Positions 1,483 through 57,176 of a stretch of DNA of 64,000 nt are shown one piece after another. Origin of the DNA: Ignavibacteriales bacterium (lineage in GTDB: Bacteria; Bacteroidota; Ignavibacteria; Ignavibacteriales; Melioribacteraceae). The stretch spans positions 1 through 64,000 of the forward strand of contig JAPLFG010000003.1 in NCBI GenBank assembly GCA_026390795.1, written 5' to 3'. The position numbers were made by a program, and so were the translations under genes. Under the pieces are notes generated by a model that ran no database searches, was not told the origin of the DNA, and was given only the letters and a program-made list of their open reading frames with translations. Numbering within the stretch: position 1 is the first letter of the stretch; each line of letters begins with the position of its first letter.

Positions 1483-1617
1483 CTAACTCATTTGTTGATT
1501 GAAGAGAACTTGGTTTGTCTTAATATTTTTCTTTTCTCTTTTAGCTGCCTTTTTTTCTTTCATAGTTTTAGCAGTTTCTTTCTTTAGATTCTTTTTACCG
1601 CTTTGATCTTTGCTCAT
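1483..1617 (-). CDS. Lys-rich mini-protein (44 aa), copy 1 of 3
   Basis: A 44-codon reading frame starts at ATG 1617 after GGAAGAAAA and overlaps the last 23 bases of the sigma-factor gene, so it is probably translationally coupled to it. The protein begins MSKDQSGKKNLKKETAKTM and continues KEKKAAKREKKN. It is almost all Lys/Glu/Ala and has no membrane segment. The same protein occurs at 16024-16149 (MSKGQDAKKGSKKEPAKTM) and as a broken copy at 13637-13759. Conservation of the amino-acid sequence between copies argues that it is real. Function is unknown; a nucleic-acid or ribosome-binding role would fit the charge but is only a guess. Confidence 0.7.
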   Translation of the reverse strand: MSKDQSGKKNLKKETAKTMKEKKAAKREKKNIKTNQVLFNQQMS

Positions 1618-2206
1618 AATTTTCTTCCTTAATTTTTAATGCAGGGTGGTTATTTGACTGAACATAATTGTGGAGAAGTGCATATAGAATTTTTCGTGTG
1701 CGGTTTAATCGTGAGCGCACAGTACCTATGGGACAATCAACAAATTCAGAAATTTCTTTATATGAGTAACCCTCAATATCAGATAGGAAAACAACTGTGC
1801 GGAAATCATCAGGTAAAGTAGAAAGTGCATTTACAATTTCATCATCAAAAACATTGTAGAATTCATCCTGTATATAGTGCTGTGTTGATACATCTTCCGG
1901 TTTAATATTTTCATAAAAATTTTGGACATCATCGTAATCAAGTTTGAAAGGTTGTTTATTCTTTTTGCGGTAATCATTTATGAATGAATTTTTCATAATT
2001 TTGAACAGCCACGCTCTTGCGTTTGAACCTTTTTTATAATTATCGAAGAATCTAAATGCTTTCAACAAAGTATCCTGTAATAAGTCTTCGGAATCGTCAT
2101 TATCATTCGTCATTTTTAAGGCATAATTTTTGAGTGAACTTAAATGAGGAATTACTTCTGAATTGAAGTCAGAATATTTTTGTTCTAGAATAAGATCTTT
2201 AATCAA
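1595..2206 (-). CDS. ECF (extracytoplasmic function) RNA polymerase sigma factor
   Basis: This 203-residue protein is a sigma-70 family ECF sigma factor that directs RNA polymerase to a set of alternative promoters. Region 2 spans about residues 20-85, with 'DSEDLLQDTLLKAF' and 'NARAWLFKIMKNSFINDYRKK'. Region 4 spans about 125-178, with 'LSTLPDDFRTVVFLSDIEGYS', 'KEISEFVDCPIGTVRSRLNR'. Regions 3 and 1.1 are absent, as expected for ECF. The start appears to be TTG at 2206 after GGAAAG; the first ATG would cut into region 2. No classic anti-sigma gene follows; the Lys-rich mini-protein overlaps the 3' end. It may share a transcript with 2271-2651 (64 bp gap). It is a candidate reader of the repeated 37-bp motif, by inference. 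Confidence 0.93.
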   Translation of the reverse strand: MIKDLILEQKYSDFNSEVIPHLSSLKNYALKMTNDNDDSEDLLQDTLLKAFRFFDNYKKGSNARAWLFKIMKNSFINDYRKKNKQPFKLDYDDVQNFYENIKPEDVSTQHYIQDEFYNVFDDEIVNALSTLPDDFRTVVFLSDIEGYSYKEISEFVDCPIGTVRSRLNRTRKILYALLHNYVQSNNHPALKIKEENYEQRSKR

Positions 2207-13947: not shown

Positions 13948-15696
13948 TCAACTAGCCTTTTTTCCGGTACGACTAAATTTTATGAATTTATCTGCTTTTC
14001 TACTCTTTGCCATTTTTTTCTCATTATGTACAAACATTTCCGCTTTTGCTTTTTCCATATCGATGATTTTTTGTGTTTCTGATTCTTCCTCTTTAAATTC
14101 AGATCGCAGTACAACAATCTGAGCTTCGGTCGCTGCACGTTTTAGTGCTAATCCAAATTGTCTACGCTCAATTTCTTGCCGGCGTAATAATTGTTCTGCA
14201 TCGTTTTTAGCTTCTTGTGATAAACGAGCGGAACCGGTTAATACACCTTCCGGACCAACATAAACATCAAGCAATTCAATCCCATGGTCTGTCAGTTTAA
14301 ACTCGCGAATCTGATTAGAATGTTCCATCCCGCGAGATTTAAGAATATACAATCCTCTATTGCGCTCACCGCCAATTTCAATATCACGCAAAAGCAGCCA
14401 TGTATCTATCAGCGATGATATTGACATATCTGTAAGTTCCTGGCTATCACCCGCGTCAGAAAGATTTACGAAGAATGCAGTAATATTTCTCATCTTTAAA
14501 AAATCTACAAGTCGTAGTAACATTATTTTTACTTCAGTTTGGTTGTTTCCAATAACAAAAGCATCAATAGGGTCTAGAACAACTATTTGCGGTTGAACTT
14601 TATTAATTAATTTAATAGTAGTAGTTAAATGATGTTCCAATCCAAAGAGTGTTGGACGTGTTGCATGAAAGCTAAGTATTCCTTTTTTAACCCACGGTGC
14701 TAAATGAATTCCGATTGATGCCATATTACGCATATACTGACTAGGGGATTCTTCGAAAGCAAAATAAAGAACGCGCTCTCCGCGCCTGCAAGCAGCTTCA
14801 ACAAATTGTGCCGCAAGGCTTGTTTTACCTGTACCTGCGGTACCAGAAACAAGTATAGTACTGCCGCGATAGTAACCTTTACCCGAAAGCATTGTATCCA
14901 GTCTTGGAATACCGGAGGATATTCTTTCGTTAGTTGAAATGTGGTTTAATCCAAGCGAAGTGACCGGTAGAACAGAAAATCCATCCTCATCAATTAAGAA
15001 AGGATATTCGTTTGTACCGTGAGTTGAACCGCGGTATTTAACAATTCGCAATCTGCGTATGGATGATTGATCGCTGACGCGATGATCCAGAACAATGACA
15101 CAATCGGAAACGTACTCTTCCAAACCTTGACGTGTTAAACGAGTATATGTACCATCTCCTCGTTCTCCGGTAATTATAGTTGTAACACCTTTCTTTTTTA
15201 ACCAGCTGAATAACCGCCGCAGTTCTGTTCGTACAATAGTAGAATTGGGCAGCGCTGAGAAAAGAGATTCAATAGTATCAAGCACAACACGTTTAGCACC
15301 GATGCTTTCAATTGCACTATGGATTCGGACGAACAAACCTTTCAGATCATATTCACCAGTTTGTTCTATTTCACCGCGCTCAATTTTAATGTGTTCAAGT
15401 AAAATCTTTTTATGGGCAACAAGACTATCTAAATCGAATCCCAAGGAAGCAACATTTGCCGTAAGTTCTTTTTCAGTTTCCTCAAACGAAATGAATACAC
15501 CGGGTTCATTGTAGCGAGTTGCACCTCGAACGAGAAACTCCATCGCAAAAAGCGTCTTTCCGCAACCCGGACCTCCGCATATTAGAGTTGGTCTTCCTTT
15601 CGGTAATCCGCCGCCTGTAATTTCGTCAAATCCTTGAATACTTGTTGGGGCTTTTGGAAGGGTCTTCCGCTGAAATTTCACTTCTTTTTTATTCAT
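13948..15696 (-). CDS. KaiC-like double-domain RecA-fold ATPase
   Basis: The 582-residue protein has two KaiC-type domains. The first Walker A is 'GGPGCGKTLFAMEF' (residues 41-54) with catalytic Glu pair in 'FISFEETEKEL'. The second is 'GTAGTGKTSLAAQF' (near 285) with 'YFAFEESPSQY'. Walker B segments are 'RVVLDTIESLF' and 'IVVLDPIDAFV'. The C-terminal ~90 residues form a charged coiled coil ('EQLLRRQEIERRQFGLALKR'), unlike cyanobacterial KaiC but usual in non-clock KaiC-like proteins. No kaiA or kaiB is present. Such proteins are thought to act in stress signalling, often with kinases. The start ATG follows GGAGATAAAATAA. Motif copy 5 lies 178 bp upstream, which suggests a longer leader. Confidence 0.9.
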   Translation of the reverse strand: MNKKEVKFQRKTLPKAPTSIQGFDEITGGGLPKGRPTLICGGPGCGKTLFAMEFLVRGATRYNEPGVFISFEETEKELTANVASLGFDLDSLVAHKKILLEHIKIERGEIEQTGEYDLKGLFVRIHSAIESIGAKRVVLDTIESLFSALPNSTIVRTELRRLFSWLKKKGVTTIITGERGDGTYTRLTRQGLEEYVSDCVIVLDHRVSDQSSIRRLRIVKYRGSTHGTNEYPFLIDEDGFSVLPVTSLGLNHISTNERISSGIPRLDTMLSGKGYYRGSTILVSGTAGTGKTSLAAQFVEAACRRGERVLYFAFEESPSQYMRNMASIGIHLAPWVKKGILSFHATRPTLFGLEHHLTTTIKLINKVQPQIVVLDPIDAFVIGNNQTEVKIMLLRLVDFLKMRNITAFFVNLSDAGDSQELTDMSISSLIDTWLLLRDIEIGGERNRGLYILKSRGMEHSNQIREFKLTDHGIELLDVYVGPEGVLTGSARLSQEAKNDAEQLLRRQEIERRQFGLALKRAATEAQIVVLRSEFKEEESETQKIIDMEKAKAEMFVHNEKKMAKSRKADKFIKFSRTGKKAS

Positions 15697-16023
15697 TTTA
15701 TTTTATCTCCACATATACTTTTTTTACATGCAACATGGCTTTCATTATTGGTTTAATTTGATACTATTATCCACTTGCTAATAAAAGTTCAAAAGTTGAG
15801 CAACCTCTTAGTAGCGATTTTAGTATTTTGAAATTATTATCGCGTAAAGAAAAGAAGAATCTGTAGAACAAAACAATAGTCCAAAAGGATGAAAAATGGA
15901 CTATATAATTTCCACTTAAGGTTAAGTAGGGTTTATAGTAAGAAGAGGCAGCTTCATAAAAGTCGGCATTAAGCAGCAGCATTGTTTTAGATGATACAAT
16001 TTCAAACTTCCAGATTAAACGAG
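15697..16023. other. gene-free stretch
   Basis: Only motif copy 5 is recognised here. A 71-codon frame on the minus strand runs through the motif itself and is not considered a gene. Confidence 0.5.
15873..15909 (-). promoter_or_regulatory. shared upstream motif, copy 5 (divergent)
   Basis: The copy reads ACAATAGTCC, AAAAGGATG, AAAAATGGACTA, TATAATT. The left and central parts are kept; the right CATC arm is lost. It lies 178 bp upstream of the KaiC-like gene. Confidence 0.55.
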
Positions 16024-18236: not shown

Positions 18237-18635
18237 CTACACATCCATTCCTGCTTTGATTGCAGTTTTCAAACGCTCACTTTCTTTTTCATACTTTTCT
18301 TTTCCTTGATTAGCTACTTTTCCAGTTTTATCTTTCGCTTCGGTAAGAAGTTTCTCCGCTTCATTTAAAAGCATATCAACTTTTTCCTTAGTTTCGGCAA
18401 CCAATTTTTCGGACTTATTTTTGCCTTCATTCATTAAGTGCGAAACCTTATCCTTTGCTTTCACAATGTACTCATCAACATCGTCAAGAAAGTCGTGCGA
18501 TTTCGTTTTGATCTCTTCGCGTAAATTTTTCCCGGATTTCGGAGCATATAGAAGTGCTATAATTGATCCGACAGCGGCACCGGTAAGAGTTCCAATTAGT
18601 AACCCTTTTCCAATTCCCTTTGCTTCGTTCGTCAT
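18237..18635 (-). CDS. YtxH-like stress protein
   Basis: The start chosen is ATG 18635 (MTNEAKGIGKGLLIG), which follows ATGGAGGTTTAAG; the longer frame has no such site. The protein has a glycine-rich membrane helix 'GKGLLIGTLTGAAVGSIIAL', then the YtxH signature 'LYAPKSGKNLREEIK' and a long Lys/Glu coiled coil ('EKLVAETKEKVDMLLNEAEK'). It anchors in the membrane with a cytoplasmic helical tail. It lies directly upstream of the DUF948 gene. A degenerate motif copy is about 100 bp upstream (18734-18770). Confidence 0.88.
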   Translation of the reverse strand: MTNEAKGIGKGLLIGTLTGAAVGSIIALLYAPKSGKNLREEIKTKSHDFLDDVDEYIVKAKDKVSHLMNEGKNKSEKLVAETKEKVDMLLNEAEKLLTEAKDKTGKVANQGKEKYEKESERLKTAIKAGMDV

Positions 18636-18733
18636 CTTAAACCTCCATTGGTTATGACATTTTAAAAATTCATTCATTAGTCCATAAGAGATTATTTTAT
18701 TCATGTTCCTTTATTACCAGGTGAATGGAATAA

Positions 18734-19040: not shown

Positions 19041-19091
19041 ATATAGTTGTCTAATGCTTGTGTGAAAAGCTATAATTACGAGTAGTAAAAT

Positions 19092-44142: not shown

Positions 44143-44328
44143 TTATAATTTTGAAATTATATTTCGTAATTCTTCCTTAGTTTTTCCGAGTTTACTCTGC
44201 AATCTTCCCAATAGTTCCTCTTCTTTACCTTCCTTGAACAACAAATCATCATCAGTCAGATTTGCGAATTGTTGTTTGAGTTTACCTGAGAGTTCATTCC
44301 AGTTTCCTTTAATTATCAGTGCGTTCAT
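44143..44328 (-). CDS. CsbD-family stress protein
   Basis: The 61-residue protein is a classical CsbD: '[20 protein letters not shown]', '[20 protein letters not shown]' and '[13 protein letters not shown]'. The ATG follows AAGGAGCCATGA. Motif copy 9 is 90 bp upstream. A broken duplicate of this gene is found at 45547-45639, on the other side of the mscS gene. Confidence 0.9.
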
Positions 44329-44417
44329 TTCATGGCTCCTTTAAAATTTTTAGTGATCTAAGTTTCGAGTACTAGTTCCTATTTGCGGGGTTATGATAGG
44401 AATGAATTCATGATTGT

Positions 44418-49483: not shown

Positions 49484-50383
49484 CTATTTAGCATGATCGA
49501 CAATAATTTCAACCCGGCGATTGTTCGCTCTACCTTCGACGCTATTATTATCAGCCACCGGTCTATTTTCACCGATTCCCTGTGCTTGAATCAAATCGCT
49601 TGGGTAACCGCGTGAAATAAGGTATGAACGCACTGCATCAGCACGCTGCTGCGATAACAACTGATTATGAGTGTCAGAACCCTGAGAGTCGGTATGACCT
49701 TCAACGGTTAGTTTCCTTTCTTTAGTCTCTAAGAGCGCATCGGCAACTTGGTTTAACCTATTCTGTGCCATTGGCAAGAGCTCCGATTTGTTCGAAGCAA
49801 AAAGTACACTTCCTGAAAGAGTAATTACGAGACCACGCGCCTCTTCTTTAACAGCCGCAAGTTTTGCAAGATCTGCTTGCGCTTTAGTTTCTCTAGCTTC
49901 TGCTTCGAGTCGTGCTTTTTGCTCTGCGGCAAGCTGTGCTCCTTGCATATCAGATACCTTTTTCTCTGCAGCAAGCTGCTCTGTTTTAAGCGCAGCGTTA
50001 CGCTCCGATGTAGCTAGGTCCTCTTTAGTGTTCTTCAAAATTTCGGTCTGTGATGCCTGGTAATCCTTCTCTGCCTTAGCGGTTTTTGCATTTTCAGCAA
50101 CAGTGGTAGCAAGAGCTTCAGCCATCTTGGCTTTGCGATCCGCAACATAAGCGAGATCTCGCGTTTGGTATGATTCAGGCTCGTCTTGGAAAGATTTTTC
50201 AGCAACATCAAGTGCCGCTTTTGCTTTGTGTAACTCGGCAGGAACTAATTGTGCGGCCTGCCCAGAACTTGCATGTTGATAAGCCTGACGCGCATTGATT
50301 AGCTCTGTTGGAGGAATGGTCGCACCGCAGCCAGCAAGCAGTCCGGCATATGCTATGATGATGAGATATGTAATTGGTTTCAT
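49484..50383 (-). CDS. OmpA-family lipoprotein with DUF4398-like N-terminus
   Basis: The 299-residue protein has a lipobox Leu-Ala-Gly-Cys (Cys19). Residues 25-110 form a DUF4398-like helical region ('ELHKAKAALDVAEKSFQDEP'), then a coiled coil ('TEQLAAEKKVSDMQGAQLAA'), and a C-terminal OmpA domain with 'LFASNKSELLPMAQNRLNQV', 'LTVEGHTDSQGSDTHNQLLS' and 'RADAVRSYLISRGYPSDLIQ', then 'GRANNRRVEIIVD'. It binds peptidoglycan through the OmpA part. The DUF4398 lipoprotein gene upstream ends only 3 bp before it. The DNA is unusually G+C-rich here (about 48% in sampled lines). Confidence 0.9.
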   Translation of the reverse strand: MKPITYLIIIAYAGLLAGCGATIPPTELINARQAYQHASSGQAAQLVPAELHKAKAALDVAEKSFQDEPESYQTRDLAYVADRKAKMAEALATTVAENAKTAKAEKDYQASQTEILKNTKEDLATSERNAALKTEQLAAEKKVSDMQGAQLAAEQKARLEAEARETKAQADLAKLAAVKEEARGLVITLSGSVLFASNKSELLPMAQNRLNQVADALLETKERKLTVEGHTDSQGSDTHNQLLSQQRADAVRSYLISRGYPSDLIQAQGIGENRPVADNNSVEGRANNRRVEIIVDHAK

Positions 50384-50767: not shown

Positions 50768-51082
50768 GAGATCCTCCATAGAAATTGTTATGTAATGCGA
50801 TTTTCGATTCATGTTACTCAAGAACAGAAAATCTCTTTTTGATTTCGGATTAATCTATCGATGATAACCTCAAAAGCCAATCGAGCGAAGGGATGAAAAA
50901 GGAACTACATCTTTTATTTGAGTTCATACAAGTTTTATACGGAATTCATTCGAAGTTTATAGGTAAATAATACGCAGTTAATTCAGCCCCATATTACTTA
51001 TAGAAGATATTTTTTCCTGTTGCGGCAATTCTAAATTTTGCAATTACTTATTATTGATTTTGCATCAATTATGATTATTCGC
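50768..51082. other. gene-free stretch
   Basis: Apart from motif copy 12 I see no gene. At about 51028-51053 a short sequence (ATTCTAAATTTTG, AATTACTTATTA) resembles one at 48095-48119, just past the stop of the gene above; both may be transcript ends. Confidence 0.4.
50877..50913 (-). promoter_or_regulatory. shared upstream motif, copy 12
   Basis: The copy reads CCAATCGAGC, GAAGGGATG, AAAAAGGAACTA, CATCTTT. It is ~110 bp upstream of the DUF4398/OmpA pair at 50767. Confidence 0.75.
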
Positions 51083-51757
51083 TTATTGCTTTCTAATTTC
51101 TTTTAATTCAAATTCGATGGTTCCATATCCTAGAAGATCCCTTAGAAATCCCATCACACCGCCGCCTTCAATTATTATTTTAGCTTTTATTAATCCAATA
51201 CCTTCAGCAAACCATTCGGTTACTCTATTTTTAGCATTCCCAGAACCTTCAATAATTGATTCCAATTTAATTGCTTCAAATCTTCCCGCTTTTGTTGTAA
51301 TGAATTCCTTATCAAAAGCCTTCCCTGTAACCTTTACTTTATTTGTATCACCATCTGAATATTCATCACCTTCCCATTTCCACTCAACACCAGGATATAA
51401 AGGAAGAGGAAATCGTAACAACGGTTTTCCATAAGTGAACGTTGCTTCCTTTTTTATAAATAGAAAAATCTTTAAATATTGATATGTTTCTTTTACGTAA
51501 ATGCCGTTTTCTTTTATTATAAAAGTTTGTCTATACTTGAATTTATCCGCTTCACTCGAACTGATAGTAAATTCACCATTTTGAGAGTATTTGGTAGTAC
51601 TTTCACCAAACGATGACTCATAAACCAGCGTAATACCATTATTAACCGGGAAGTATGTGCTTGTGTTTATTGGGGTTTTCCTTTTAACTGATGAAGCATC
51701 AATCAAAGAAACAAAAAAAAGTAAAAGTGGAATGATAAATATAGAATTGCTTTTCAT
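51083..51757 (-). CDS. secreted protein of unknown function
   Basis: The 224-residue product has a signal peptide (residues 1-21, ending IDASS). The mature protein is beta-rich: 'YFPVNNGITLVYESSFGEST', 'FPLPLYPGVEWKWEGDEYSD' and 'RVTEWFAEGIGLIKAKIIIE'. The 'W-F-A-E-G-I-G-L' motif is seen in many periplasmic Bacteroidota proteins (DUF-type). The function is unknown. The ATG lies ~8 bases after GGAAACTCCAACTG-like DNA. Confidence 0.7.
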   Translation of the reverse strand: MKSNSIFIIPLLLFFVSLIDASSVKRKTPINTSTYFPVNNGITLVYESSFGESTTKYSQNGEFTISSSEADKFKYRQTFIIKENGIYVKETYQYLKIFLFIKKEATFTYGKPLLRFPLPLYPGVEWKWEGDEYSDGDTNKVKVTGKAFDKEFITTKAGRFEAIKLESIIEGSGNAKNRVTEWFAEGIGLIKAKIIIEGGGVMGFLRDLLGYGTIEFELKEIRKQ

Positions 51758-51895
51758 GTCAGTTGGAGTTTCCTAATTACATCGTCTTGTAAGAATAAAA
51801 TCTTTCTTCTTCCAGATAGAAGGGGAAAAAGGGGGATTAAAATTGTTATTTATTATGACTTAGTTCTTTTACTCATCTGTAACATTTTTTAAATA

Positions 51896-51934
51896 AACCC
51901 AGCTGTAAATACCACTTTAATTTGCAGCTGGGTT
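51896..51934 (-). terminator. hairpin below motif 13, probable intrinsic terminator
   Basis: AACCCAGCTG (51896-51905) pairs exactly with CAGCTGGGTT (51925-51934); on the minus strand the stem is followed by TTTATTT. Its 10-bp stem and T-rich tail suit termination of transcripts coming from the motif at 52058. Confidence 0.6.
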
Positions 51935-52057
51935 AAGGGGTTGTATGAGCGCAATGTTCAACCAATCAAGTTCACAAATTAAATTATAATTTGTTTTTCT
52001 AATCACTTTATTGGTCTTATCATTGCTAAGTAATCATAGGAAGAAATTTAGTGCAGA
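51896..52057 (-). ncRNA. candidate small RNA between motif 13 and hairpin
   Basis: A full motif copy (52058-52094) faces a ~160-base stretch that contains no frame longer than a few codons on the minus strand and ends in the 10-bp hairpin at 51896-51934. The next gene in that direction starts 140 bp farther on. The arrangement is that of a short transcript unit under the shared motif. Exact ends are not defined. Confidence 0.4.
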
Positions 52058-52094
52058 GCAATCGTCCATAAGGATGAAAAAGGAACTACATCTT
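52058..52094 (-). promoter_or_regulatory. shared upstream motif, copy 13
   Basis: The copy reads GCAATCGTCC, ATAAGGATG, AAAAAGGAACTA, CATCTTT. It has no gene within the usual 110 bp and instead faces the candidate small RNA. Confidence 0.7.
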
Positions 52095-52205
52095 TCGAGT
52101 GAGCTCGATTCTTAAAACATGCATGATTATTTTGTTGAATAACTAATTACTAATAGTTAATTGGATTACCAACTGTAATATTAAGTTTGGGTTTACAGTC
52201 TAGCT

Positions 52206-52424
52206 CTATTTTACCGCTTGTCTTTTTTCTGTCCTAATTATGCGCAACCCTCTTTGCAAAGCTTCAGCACGATCTAATTCTTTTTCCGCACGAATCAATT
52301 CTATTTCCTTTTCATTTATTTTATAAAATTTTTGATTTTTATATAACGCATTAAATATTATATAAAACAATATTGATATTACTCCTAATAACAGAAGCAT
52401 ACCGGCTAAAGCTATTTCATTCAT
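52206..52424 (-). CDS. 72-residue single-helix membrane protein
   Basis: The product has one N-terminal helix (residues 4-27, 'IALAGMLLLLGVISILFYII') and a charged coil 'EKEIELIRAEKELDRAEALQ', ending 'EKRQAVK'. It may be a membrane-anchored helical protein. The AsmA-like gene ends 28 bp upstream, so it probably shares its transcript. I know no family. Confidence 0.6.
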   Translation of the reverse strand: MNEIALAGMLLLLGVISILFYIIFNALYKNQKFYKINEKEIELIRAEKELDRAEALQRGLRIIRTEKRQAVK

Positions 52425-52452
52425 ATTTTTACCTCAACATTATTTTATTAAA

Positions 52453-53850
52453 TTATTCTTTAGGGAATCCGACTAAATCGGCAACACCGCCTCTAAGAGC
52501 AAACCAAACAAATTGGAGAAAATAATCTTGCGGATTCCTTGTGTAATTTATTTCCCCGATCTTCATTAAACCTTTTTCATCCGGCGTATTAGTTCCGCGG
52601 ATGACAAATACTTTTCCAAAGAATGAAAAGATCCGATCGAAAATTCCTTTTTCACTTCCGGTATCTTTATTCAGGATTGCAATGGTTACATCTTTATAAA
52701 TGGCTCGCAAGGTACCGGTTGCATGTCCCCTATTAACATTGATATTAAACGATGCGGACTGAAGAGTTCCGGATTTTATACGATGATGTTCACCTGGTTC
52801 TATAAATTCATTTAGTTTAGTCACATCCAACCTGCTGAGCGAACCGGAATAATGTAAAGAAAAATTCTTTGGAGCGAGAGGAATTGCCATAGATAGTTTC
52901 ATTGTACCGGAGTTCATAAAAACACCCTCGCCATTAACAATCGCAGTATCAAGTGTAGAGGTATGATTCGCAATTCCACTTACTGAAACTTTGACTTTAT
53001 TAAATGTAATTACTCCAGGTTTTGCTCTTACTGCAAACCTCTCAGAATATTTCAACCGCCCATTAGTAATATTCAGACTATCAATTTTTACTTTCTCCTT
53101 CATTGAAGAGAGAGCCTCGTTCGGCATCTGTGGATTAGATGAGTTTTTGTCATATGGCTTGTCCATGTTCACCAGGATATCAGCAAACACATCATGTATA
53201 TTAATATTTTTGGCTCTATAGATATTTTCCTCTAGCATCGCGAAATAATCCAAACCAATTATTTTTATTTGAGGAATATCAAAACGAAATCTTGTTTGTC
53301 TGAATTTACTTTTTGCAAAAAATTGCTCATCGTTAATTAAAGAATAATATTTTATTGAATCTGCAGTCATTTCGGAATCAGGCACCGATACATGCAATGT
53401 TTTTAAACGAATTTCATTCTGAGACTTATGAAAAGTAAGAACAATTTTTTCCGCATTAATTGCTGCGTTCTTTGCAACATCAAGAGTAGAATCTTTTTGC
53501 AGAAGTATTTTCATCCAACCCATTCCGCCCACGGAAAATGAAGCAACTTTGCATGTGAATGTAGAATCTTTAGCTTTCACTGTTAATGAATCACATCCTA
53601 AACGATTCTTCCAGACATTGTAATGCAAATCGCCAAGCTTTATTGAGTATGCCGGATAGGCTTCTGCAAAATTTTTATTAATGCGGTCTTTTAAGAATGC
53701 ATTAATAAAAGGATCCGGAAAGAAAAGTAATACCAATGCAAAGATTAGTATAATACTCCCAATAACAATTCCTGTATACTTTAAAATTTTCCGAGTCGAT
53801 AGTTCTCCCCGCTTGAATAATTCTTTTTTAAACTGTGGTATTTGTATCAT
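52453..53850 (-). CDS. AsmA/DUF748-like envelope protein
   Basis: The 465-residue protein has an N-terminal helix ('YTGIVIGSIILIFALVLLFF') and a long beta-strand-rich periplasmic part ('IKLGDLHYNVWKNRLGCDSL', 'RLKTLHVSVPDSEMTADSIK', 'SGTLQSASFNINVNRGHATG'). The architecture matches AsmA/DUF748 proteins, which bridge inner and outer membranes and carry lipids. The start codon overlaps the AI-2E-exporter stop by ATGA (53847-53850). Confidence 0.75.
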   Translation of the reverse strand: MIQIPQFKKELFKRGELSTRKILKYTGIVIGSIILIFALVLLFFPDPFINAFLKDRINKNFAEAYPAYSIKLGDLHYNVWKNRLGCDSLTVKAKDSTFTCKVASFSVGGMGWMKILLQKDSTLDVAKNAAINAEKIVLTFHKSQNEIRLKTLHVSVPDSEMTADSIKYYSLINDEQFFAKSKFRQTRFRFDIPQIKIIGLDYFAMLEENIYRAKNINIHDVFADILVNMDKPYDKNSSNPQMPNEALSSMKEKVKIDSLNITNGRLKYSERFAVRAKPGVITFNKVKVSVSGIANHTSTLDTAIVNGEGVFMNSGTMKLSMAIPLAPKNFSLHYSGSLSRLDVTKLNEFIEPGEHHRIKSGTLQSASFNINVNRGHATGTLRAIYKDVTIAILNKDTGSEKGIFDRIFSFFGKVFVIRGTNTPDEKGLMKIGEINYTRNPQDYFLQFVWFALRGGVADLVGFPKE

Positions 53851-54917
53851 TGTTTTTTCTTCTTCGCCATTGGTTTAGAAATTTCATCTAATTTTTCTGA
53901 TCCCAGCAATACAGCTATCCATCTTGTACTTTCACTACTTTCGAAAGCAAACTTAAATGTCATTGTTAGCGGAATACAAAGAATCGCACCTACCAAACCA
54001 AGTAAACTGCCCCAGAAGATCAGCGATAGAAAAACGACCAAAGTAGAAAGTCCGAATTTCCTTCCCATAAGTCGGGGTTCAATCACATTACCAATTATGA
54101 ATCCGATAAAAACATTACCGGCAACAACAAGTAGAGCGCTACCCAACCCCAGTTGGACAAGAGCAAGAAGAGCAGCAGGAACAGCTGCTATAACAGAACC
54201 GATATTTGGTATATAATGAAGAATAAATGCGAGGAACCCCCATAATACGGGGAATTGTACGCCGAGTATCTGCATCCATACAGCAATTAAAATTCCGGCA
54301 ACTAAGTTGATTATTGTCTTGATTACCATGTATCGTTTCATATCAACTATAAATTTTGTGAATTGCGGAAATGCCTGCTTGGGATCACCGATGATGGTTC
54401 GAAGTTTTACCGGAAAGCTTGATACTTCAAGCAAGATAAAAGTTACTGTTAGAAGGATTAAAACAAGATCGGATAGTAGAGAACTTAATCCCGATAGTAA
54501 GCCGGCAGTGAGTTTCATTATCGCTTCGGGATTAACGTATTCTAGAAAAAATTTTGGGGAAACTACAATGCCCTTGCTTGTCAATAGTACTGTGAGTGCT
54601 TTGACTTGTTCTCTAATGCGTGTTTGCAATAAAGGCAGTTCATCGGAAAAGTTACTGACGGATGAACCAATTTGTGCGCCAATCAGAATTATAATAATTA
54701 TCATGACTGCCATTACGATCAATACGGCAAATCCTGATGGGATATGTTTTTCTTTTAACCAAAGCACCGCCGGAGTTCCTAGCAGCGCAAAGAAAACAGA
54801 AATAAGGAATAGGACAACAACAGATTGTGCAAGATTGATCCCGGCAATAATTATTACTAATGCGGCTGCGCTTATTAGAATATGCATTCCGCTTAAAGGA
54901 TTAGTTCTCTCAGTCAT
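53847..54917 (-). CDS. AI-2E family transporter
   Basis: The 356-residue membrane protein has about eight helices and the family segments 'FFALLGTPAVLWLKEKHIPS', 'LPVLWGFLAFILHYIPNIGS'-like 'FILHYIPNIGSVIAAVPAAL' and 'GNVIEPRLMGRKFGLSTLVV'. It exports autoinducer-like or other compounds, or works as a sodium/proton antiporter in some bacteria. It is translationally coupled to the AsmA-like gene. Confidence 0.9.
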   Translation of the reverse strand: MTERTNPLSGMHILISAAALVIIIAGINLAQSVVVLFLISVFFALLGTPAVLWLKEKHIPSGFAVLIVMAVMIIIIILIGAQIGSSVSNFSDELPLLQTRIREQVKALTVLLTSKGIVVSPKFFLEYVNPEAIMKLTAGLLSGLSSLLSDLVLILLTVTFILLEVSSFPVKLRTIIGDPKQAFPQFTKFIVDMKRYMVIKTIINLVAGILIAVWMQILGVQFPVLWGFLAFILHYIPNIGSVIAAVPAALLALVQLGLGSALLVVAGNVFIGFIIGNVIEPRLMGRKFGLSTLVVFLSLIFWGSLLGLVGAILCIPLTMTFKFAFESSESTRWIAVLLGSEKLDEISKPMAKKKKQ

Positions 54918-54929
54918 ATTTTTATCTGA

Positions 54930-55442
54930 TTATATTTTTTTTAGTTTTAAATCTGAGATCATTGCCACAGCCGAGATAAAATAAAAAATGACCAACCATT
55001 TGAGATATGCCGGTGCAAACAAATAACCGAGAAGTGCAATTGTTGAAACAGCCGAAGCAGCAAGAACAGTCGGAATGCCGGTGAATCCCTTTTGTTTATA
55101 TGCTGTGAAATATGCAAGTCTTATTGCCGCTGCACCAACGTTTAAAAATCCGGCAACGAGCATTGCGGGACCGGTTATACCTATAAACCAACCAAATACA
55201 ACAGAAGAAGCCACCGCCATAAAATCTGTAAAACTATCCAGATAAACACCCAACGCTCCCCCGCCAATTGCCCGAGCCAACTTTCCATCAAAATAATCTA
55301 AGAGGAATTGCAGAAGGATAAGAGCGTAAGCAAGAATCAAAAGTCCTTTGAAAGAAAAATAAACGGACAAGGAAACACTTAACAGACCGAGCAAGGTAAG
55401 AATATCCGGCAACCGAAGAGTACGGAGTTGTTTAAATAACAT
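54930..55442 (-). CDS. CDP-alcohol phosphatidyltransferase
   Basis: The 170-residue membrane enzyme has the family motif in 'DYFDGKLARAIGGGALGVYL', continuing 'DSFTDFMA' (DGx2ARx8Gx3Dx3D). It joins a CDP-diacylglycerol-type head group to an alcohol such as serine or glycerol phosphate. The substrate is not certain. It lies 12 bp upstream of the AI-2E exporter start, and so an operon of three genes is likely. Confidence 0.9.
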   Translation of the reverse strand: MLFKQLRTLRLPDILTLLGLLSVSLSVYFSFKGLLILAYALILLQFLLDYFDGKLARAIGGGALGVYLDSFTDFMAVASSVVFGWFIGITGPAMLVAGFLNVGAAAIRLAYFTAYKQKGFTGIPTVLAASAVSTIALLGYLFAPAYLKWLVIFYFISAVAMISDLKLKKI

Positions 55443-55790: not shown

Positions 55791-57140
55791 TTATTGCAGT
55801 TTCTTATATTCTTTTTTGTCATCAGTCGAATTAGATTTAGTTTTTCGATCATTACCATTTTCCTTGTAAGGGTTTGTTGATCTAACCTTCGGTGGTTGTT
55901 CTCTATTATTATTCTTTGGTACCACAGTTTTCGGCGGCTGTAATGGTGGAACTATTTTATTATCTTTTTTTGGCGGATCTAAAGATCGCTGTTGGTATGG
56001 ATGATTTTTACTGCCGTTATCTTTAAGCGGAATTGTATTTTGTACCTGCGGCAATTGATCTTTTTTATTTTCTTTTCTTGGAGGATCTAGCTTCTGCGGT
56101 TGATACGAATTCTTTTTAACGTCAATTTTATTTACTTTATTCACAGTAGGCCGTGTATTTCTTGTTACATTGTTTTTCGCCGGGGCTGCATTTCGCTGTT
56201 GAGGTGAATTCTCTTTCCCATTGAATTTATTTGGAAGATTTACTGCATCTTGTTGGTCGTTTCTCTTGTTGCCTTTTTGTTGTTGTATATTTTGAGTTCG
56301 GTTTTCTGTTTCTCTAAAGGATATTTGTTTTACATCTTTTAATCTTGTGACTTTTGAAGGCACCGGTTTATAACTGTTATTATTCTTCTTCACTACTGGT
56401 CTGTATATCTGAATCTGATCATTTGTTAATCTTTGGCCTGGTCCATCTTTTTCATTAACAGAAATCGGTTTAATTGTTCTTCCGATAATTTTTTGAACAT
56501 CTTCTCTGATAGGTCCGGTGACATATATTGTTTTTCTTCTATTATCATAGTAAGATTTATTAAGCACCTTTGAATTGGTCATAATTCTAGAATTGTTTTT
56601 TCGGTCAATATAATTTCGATCAATGTCGTGCCTTTCAATATCTCTGTCTCTCACAAATATCCAACGATCGTTAGGCACATCATTGTAGCCGCTAAAACTT
56701 ATGCTAATTGATACTCCGGGTCGCATCGGAGCCCAACCATAATAACCCTCCGACCATCTCCAAGTGACCCATGATGGACCCCACACATTATCCGGAACCC
56801 AAAACCAACCATAAGAACCGTTGTAATCCCATCTACCATAATGGAAAGCTGCCCATCCCCAGTCATATTCTGATGTCCACATCCAACCGTCATCGGTAAA
56901 TACCCAATAACCATTGGATAAATATGGAGTAAAGTCAGGACCGGCTGTTGGAATCCAGATATATCCATAATTATCGTCATCAATCCATTGACCGTACGGA
57001 CTTAATTGATCATAAAACTCCTGAAAATTAACATCGTTTTGCTGTGCTGAGATTTGTCCCGGAAATATTGCGGATACAAAATTTAAAGTGACTAAGAGTG
57101 TAAAAATTCTCATTAATAACATTGCGTTTAGCTTTTTCAC
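55791..57140 (-). CDS. DUF6600-like Trp/Tyr-rich secreted protein
   Basis: The start chosen is GTG 57140 (VKKLNAMLLMRIFTL) behind AGGAGGATTACG; an in-frame ATG 27 bases upstream has no site. The protein of ~449 residues has a signal peptide, then 'FYDQLSPYGQWIDDDNYGYI', 'WMWTSEYDWGWAAFHYGRWD', 'GWFWVPDNVWGPSWVTWRWS' (DUF6600 pattern), and a long Asn/Lys/Pro/Gln low-complexity tail. It is exported and likely outer-membrane associated. Its promoter, leader and first codons repeat those of the lipoprotein at 18872-19003. Motif copy 14 is ~90 bp upstream. Confidence 0.8.
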   Translation of the reverse strand: MKKLNAMLLMRIFTLLVTLNFVSAIFPGQISAQQNDVNFQEFYDQLSPYGQWIDDDNYGYIWIPTAGPDFTPYLSNGYWVFTDDGWMWTSEYDWGWAAFHYGRWDYNGSYGWFWVPDNVWGPSWVTWRWSEGYYGWAPMRPGVSISISFSGYNDVPNDRWIFVRDRDIERHDIDRNYIDRKNNSRIMTNSKVLNKSYYDNRRKTIYVTGPIREDVQKIIGRTIKPISVNEKDGPGQRLTNDQIQIYRPVVKKNNNSYKPVPSKVTRLKDVKQISFRETENRTQNIQQQKGNKRNDQQDAVNLPNKFNGKENSPQQRNAAPAKNNVTRNTRPTVNKVNKIDVKKNSYQPQKLDPPRKENKKDQLPQVQNTIPLKDNGSKNHPYQQRSLDPPKKDNKIVPPLQPPKTVVPKNNNREQPPKVRSTNPYKENGNDRKTKSNSTDDKKEYKKLQ

Positions 57141-57176
57141 CGTAATCCTCCTGAAAATTAAATTCACAAGTCATTC
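57121..57176. repeat. leader-start block shared with 18984-19040, copy B
   Basis: See 18984-19040. The block begins at the codons KLNA and includes the ribosome site and leader up to CATTC. The motif follows 53 bases beyond, as in copy A. Confidence 0.7.

Follow-up and report, generated by a model that had tools for sequence, protein, structure and literature searches.

The interval at positions 51888-52052, minus strand, of the window (the whole 64,000-nt stretch of DNA that was analysed, from genome G000) is probably the gene of a small noncoding RNA that belongs to a regulon and would act in trans by base pairing, with partial read-through into the gene that follows. A short RNA expressed with the regulon had been proposed in the preliminary description, and on sequence grounds this proposal is supported by the conservation of the interval, by covariation between the two arms of its hairpin, by a shorter paralogue (type B) and by the locus in genome G152. 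Three features of a regulon small RNA were found, namely a shared regulon motif, a terminator-like hairpin and the lack of a shared reading frame. The layout of the locus is as follows.

52057-52092, minus strand: regulon motif in its 36-nt form, GATGTAGTTCCTTTTTCATCCTTATGGACGATTGCT; probable promoter, with GTAGTTCC and CGATTG blocks
51888-52052, minus strand: predicted small RNA of approximately 165 nt, its ends set from the motif and the hairpin
52021-52026, minus strand: 5' arm (GCAAUG) of the closing stem P1, from folding and alignment
52005-52016, minus strand: 5' arm (GACCAAUAAAGU) of stem P2, from folding and alignment
51960-51971, minus strand: 3' arm (ACUUGAUUGGUU) of stem P2, from folding and alignment
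51951-51956, minus strand: 3' arm (CAUUGC) of the closing stem P1, from folding and alignment
51934-51949, minus strand: C-rich linker, CUCAUACAACCCCUUA, mostly unpaired; putative pairing region, from conservation and accessibility
51896-51934, minus strand: terminator hairpin, AACCCAGCUG...CAGCUGGGUU, covarying
51888-51895, minus strand: rest of the T-rich tail after the hairpin, from sequence
51083-51757, minus strand: 224-aa gene (DUF3108_like), possible read-through target; regulon member in relatives

The regulon motif and associated genes

The window contains 12 copies of the motif core, GATGTAGTTCCTTTTTCATC, when up to three mismatches are allowed; all of them lie on the minus strand, and 100 shuffles gave none. 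The copy in front of the interval had been described as well preserved, and indeed contains an exact 20-nt core at 52073-52092 within the 36-nt form. The whole genome G000 (4.08 Mb, five contigs) harbours 21 core copies, with 13 of these located in the first 66 kb of contig C3, the home of the window. A consensus, GATGTAGTTCCTTTTTCATCCYTTTGNCCGATTG, was derived from 86 copies of several genomes, in which the core columns are fixed by construction, since the copies were chosen by core, and some copies are counted twice where stretches overlap. The GTAGTYCC and CGATTG blocks look like those of an ECF-type promoter, and the element at 52057-52092 is by this likeness a probable promoter. The motif, GTAGTYCCTTTTTCATCCYTTTGNCCGATTG, does not match the EcfG promoter consensus (GGAAC, 16-17 nt, CGTT).

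Genes found behind motif copies include those encoding a CsbD protein (44143-44328), a YtxH protein (18237-18704), an OmpA/DUF4398 protein (49484-50383), a KaiC-like protein (13948-15696) and a DUF6600 protein (55791-57167), a partial list in which some are the second gene behind a copy. Judged by these products, the set reads as a stress or envelope regulon. The earlier statement that other copies have a gene at the distance occupied here by the interval was mostly right, though some of these genes are very short, an example being the one behind the copy at 44417, which encodes a CsbD protein of 61 aa.

A gene encoding an ECF sigma factor with a PhyR_sigma2 match (1595-2206, minus strand; 203 aa) is situated at the edge of the motif cluster. 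Its distribution did not help to single out the sigma factor of the regulon, as its relatives occur in 44 of 57 genomes irrespective of motif count. One such relative, in G033 (C9:106681-107226), lies approximately 192 nt behind a motif copy, which may be a hint of autoregulation. Tiny lipoprotein-like ORFs (MKKLNAI...CSCSASGG and similar) were also seen behind motif copies, at position 19091 of the window, at G000 C3:65127 and G001 C107:207, and in tandem at G007 C7:1622214 and 1622784.

The leader of the KaiC-like gene (window 13948-15908, minus strand) appears, as judged by eye, to be conserved over approximately 150 nt after the motif, the copies compared being those of L202, L206, L209, L210, L211 and G003 C53:80581. 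Some copies have complementary ends (ACACCAAA / TTTGGTGT, again by eye), and this is possibly a second structured leader of the regulon. The motif and the KaiC-type leader were additionally observed in metagenome bins labelled Chitinophagaceae (L206, L210) and Aminicenantes (L209), which would reflect either gene transfer or mis-binning.

A terminator-like hairpin in an interval without a gene

No minus-strand ORF of at least 30 aa was found between the motif and the start of the 224-aa gene (51757), in agreement with the earlier account of an interval lacking an open frame; the longest minus-strand frame of the interval encodes 29 aa from a GTG start. Neither a tRNA nor a tmRNA was detected. 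The 10-bp perfect hairpin with a T-rich tail, also noted earlier, was recovered at 51896-51934, and consists of 10 perfect pairs (six of them G-C) and a 19-nt loop with four extra inner pairs, followed on the minus strand by TTTATTT.

When both strands of the window were scanned for a perfect stem of at least 10 pairs, with at least six G-C pairs, a loop no longer than 21 and five or more T in a 12-base tail, this was the only hairpin of such strength, and the same rule retrieved none from six first-order Markov windows. A terminator scan (with consensus sigma-70) of 50800-53200, in which the loop limit was 3-8, returned no terminator. From its sequence, the hairpin is a credible intrinsic terminator. 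The ends given for the RNA are approximate, the first being placed some 7 nt beyond CGATTG and the other where the T-rich tail stops; the covariance-model match covers 51893-52047.

Distribution and sequence conservation

A search of 57 relatives with the interval retrieved matches spanning the motif to the hairpin or beyond in four genomes, at identities of 79% (G007), 80% (G003), 74% (G001) and 70% (G041, of another family). With G000 as the reference, identity was 89-94% in the motif, 69-98% in the terminator, 45-82% in the linker, 58-76% in the stem and 54-71% in the 5' tail, compared with 34-55% in the upstream flank (-150 to -21) and 53-70% in the spacer between hairpin and gene. The first 90 bases of the 224-aa gene were 63-78% identical, and the stem segment is no better conserved than these.

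A covariance model (R1) built from five sequences (G000, G007, G003, G001 and G041) identified the approximately 165-nt form of the RNA, hereafter type A, in 8 of 164 Ignavibacteriales genomes (order membership being assigned by record titles) at E <= 0.01, spread over three families. The genomes added by this model were G152 and G137, of the same family, and G089, of a third family, and the motif was found just upstream of the RNA in all eight. A further model (R3), built from all eight type A sequences, was run on 391 genomes drawn from the class; eight passed E <= 0.05, comprising seven already known and G200, with G041 absent among the matches listed. G200, from outside the order, was rejected as a homologue on account of a weak match on both strands and the lack of a motif, and no further credible type A homologue was identified by R3 in the 391 genomes.

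Within the genus of the window, the RNA occurs in all four genomes that have 12-26 motif copies, and no copy of it was found in the eight with 0-2, several of the latter being incomplete. No R1 match was found in the motif-rich genomes outside the genus, namely G033 (18 copies), G019 (12) and G030 (10). Among 132 motif copies in fetched stretches, 12 were accompanied by a terminator-like hairpin under a loose rule, and seven of these belong to the RNA family. A pattern scan of named genomes returned 18 stretches, five of which carry the RNA on the motif strand: those of Melioribacter sp. fen_1284, Stygiobacter sp. RIFOXYC2_FULL_38_25, Ignavibacteriae bacterium HGW-Ignavibacteriae-3, Ignavibacteriales bacterium SURF_24 and Melioribacteraceae bacterium Tobar13.5m-G5. 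Comparison with Rfam release 15 produced no match at gathering thresholds, and the best lax matches were far below threshold.

Predicted secondary structure

The strand from the window folds at -41.2 kcal/mol (z = -3.04). Seven of the eight type A homologues fold singly to one plan, with G041 the exception, in which a long stem, whose closing pairs are GCAA(U)/(A)UUGC, is followed by a mostly unpaired linker and the terminator hairpin. In the eight-row alignment 84.0% of cells pair, against 79.2% in shuffles, and double-sided changes are present at 11 of 31 pairs over the eight sequences (3.8 in shuffles; 0 of 500 as high), counts that are somewhat generous because the model that retrieved several of the homologues itself favours pairing. 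Support for homology that is independent of this lean comes from the motif that accompanies each locus. Shifting the partner by one column reduced the paired cells to 44-52%, with 6-8 pairs with double changes persisting.

The double-sided changes of the eight-row alignment fall at 8 of 14 pairs in the hairpin, 1 of 6 in P1 and 2 of 11 in P2, the support for P2 being moderate (70% of cells paired). Over all 12 loci, type B included, the hairpin has such changes at 9 of 15 pairs (0 of 500 shuffles), a count that is generous to the same degree, although the hairpin has decayed in G041. The predicted structure is thereby supported by folding and by two-arm changes, best for the hairpin. Comparison with relatives for covariation and conservation, put forward in the preliminary description as a check, came out in favour of the RNA, both in its conservation (8 of 164 genomes) and in hairpin arms that change together.

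A shorter paralogue behind other motif copies

A paralogue of approximately 90-100 nt, type B, retains the 5' tail and the hairpin and has dropped the central stem. It was identified in four genomes, each time behind a motif copy: G000 (C1:33791-33916), G007 (from C7:1414679), G003 (from C53:80393) and G105. The G105 locus, from the third family, arose from a weak match to a hairpin model (E = 0.019) and was taken as type B because a motif copy precedes it at the right distance; its tail starts with a T run. Weak hairpin-model matches in G140, G145, G146, G147 and G072, none accompanied by a motif, were rejected as homologues. Type A and type B together give 12 loci, spread over 9 of 164 genomes, and every one of the 12 has the motif immediately in front of it. 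The genes after type B encode a PAS kinase (G000), a GAF/PAS kinase (G007), a KaiC-like ATPase (G003) and a YtxH protein (G105).

The motif copy at G001 C176:3685 (L099) precedes a 9-bp hairpin that is unrelated and has a T-rich tail, in a geometry that is type B-like; next comes a frame of 229 aa whose translation looks like that of a response regulator.

Relationship of the RNA to the downstream gene

A relative of the 224-aa gene follows the RNA on the same strand in seven of the eight type A loci, at a motif-to-gene distance of about 255-300 nt. In a survey of the genes behind 29 loci none was recorded at 15, a figure in which gene detection is incomplete and the negative rows are partial. 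Elsewhere the motif lies directly upstream of the 224-aa gene without a hairpin, at 184 nt in G033, 155 nt in G105, 153 nt in G077 and 115 nt in G046, which places this gene in the regulon, a point missed in the preliminary description. Some read-through past the hairpin is therefore to be expected, and would not by itself refute a small RNA.

These same arrangements favour a cis-acting leader, in which the hairpin would act as an attenuator within the 5' leader that precedes the 224-aa gene, the stem would set termination versus read-through and the short RNA would be a by-product. The leaders of G033 and G105 are in addition weakly related to the stem of the RNA (E = 0.027 and 0.0026, respectively), lacking the linker and terminator, and a C-rich stretch, hairpin and T run precede a paralogue of the 224-aa gene on contig C16 of G003. 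However, the RNA does not always precede the same gene. In G152 a second motif and a DUF3943 gene come after it, the 224-aa gene having its best relative there, at 50% identity, on another contig, and the type B copies stand before four unrelated kinds of gene. A second motif separates the hairpin from the next gene in 4 of 12 loci (G152, G105 and type B of G000 and G003), though in the window the stretch from the hairpin to the 224-aa gene contains none (best score -40). Moreover, no alternative, anti-terminator fold was seen in the single-sequence folds of seven of the eight type A RNAs. We regard a purely cis-acting leader as rather doubtful on this balance, though attenuation of the 224-aa gene or read-through into it is plausible, and a small RNA that in most species shares its promoter with the downstream regulon gene, with partial read-through, as the best reading.

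The G003 leader on contig C16 (L240 490-620) carries GATACAACCCCCTA, a CCCCTCC hairpin and a T run, with no motif, and resembles the linker-terminator part of the RNA.

It is improbable that the hairpin is a plain terminator behind a drifting leader, which would only end transcription from the regulon promoter or from the operon 52206-55442 and leave the RNA functionless. Its credibility as an intrinsic terminator agrees with that explanation, and transcripts of the upstream genes could end there too. Yet the 5' tail, stem and linker are also recognisable between families, other motif copies are likewise followed by the hairpin and 5' tail, and the upstream genes vary, being AsmA-like in G000 and G152, AI-2E in G137 and a response regulator in G089 (the last two by eye). 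A short protein encoded in the interval is highly implausible, for while short frames exist, including that of 29 aa in G000, no frame common to the eight homologues was seen when the three longest of each were compared by eye, and the changes follow base pairing.

Linker, candidate targets and proposed mechanism

The complement of the linker, UAAGGGGUUGUAUGAG, contains AAGGGG, UUGU and AUG. Since the linker CAUACAACCCCUUA thus complements a ribosome-binding site and start codon, base pairing with mRNA starts is the most likely action of the RNA. G000 and G003 have the same linker and G007 one that is a base shorter, and in G001 and G152 ACUCC replaces ACCCC (C to U), which by eye still pairs with AGGAG-type ribosome sites. 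Complementarity to a ribosome site is present in five genomes, with the start codon included in four. The linker differs in G041, G089, G137 and the type B copies of G000 and G003, so that in those copies there are other targets or the pairing hypothesis is mistaken.

A search of four genomes with the linker-complement pattern, allowing wobble and one mismatch, returned 18 sites (six in G000, three in G001, seven in G003 and two in G007), of which four are the RNA loci themselves; the 14 others compare with eight for a backwards control in the four genomes. Five other sites of G000 and two of the six in G003 were inspected, and one of the five in G000 spans the ribosome site and start codon of an L-PSP/RidA-type gene (start at G000 C1:353923), a candidate target that is considered a lead only. 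A trans-acting pairing mechanism is considered likely.

Under the small RNA reading, transcription would start at the regulon promoter at 52057-52092, run leftwards for approximately 165 nt and end at the hairpin at 51896-51934. The RNA would begin with a 5' tail, followed by the long stem with its closing pairs GCAAU/AUUGC, then by the C-rich linker, which is mostly unpaired, and finally by the terminator hairpin. With the stress regulon active, it would pair in trans with mRNA starts, lowering or reshaping their translation, and some transcripts would probably continue past the terminator into the 224-aa regulon gene.

A broader and more tentative possibility is that a portable RNA module, made up of the 5' tail, the linker, the covarying terminator and an optional central stem, has spread among the promoters of one stress regulon in the Ignavibacteriales, serving as a leader in places and as a free small RNA elsewhere. 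Each stress promoter carrying such a module would then make both a start-blocking RNA and a read-through mRNA.

Comparison with known systems

Transcription attenuators and riboswitch leaders are structured RNAs that end in a terminator and lie between a promoter and its gene, an arrangement shared by the RNA described here. It differs from them in that the gene is absent beside the RNA in G152, that type B fronts four other kinds of gene and that no competing fold was seen in the single-sequence folds. The families of Rfam release 15 offer a likeness in kind only, to bacterial small RNAs that possess a terminator.

Judged by listings, no published work on the small RNAs of Ignavibacteria or Melioribacteraceae was found. 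Should the small RNA reading hold, a structured RNA family would be tied to a clear stress-type regulon in the Ignavibacteriales, and post-transcriptional control would become testable in a group represented here largely by metagenome bins. It would also be a further case, outside the Alphaproteobacteria, of a stress regulon with its own small RNA and a C-rich pairing region.

Such a case is GsrN of Caulobacter, a small RNA that belongs to the EcfG general stress response and which according to passages of its published account has a stress-sigma promoter, an intrinsic terminator and a C-rich region that pairs with an mRNA leader, and which activates katG (PMC5869019). A stress-regulon promoter, an intrinsic terminator and a C-rich pairing region are likewise predicted here, whilst the phylum and the promoter motif are different and the C-rich part, which those passages place in a 5' loop of GsrN, is here the linker before the terminator. 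On these shared features as given in that account, GsrN appears to be the closest functional parallel, without kinship to its lineage being claimed.
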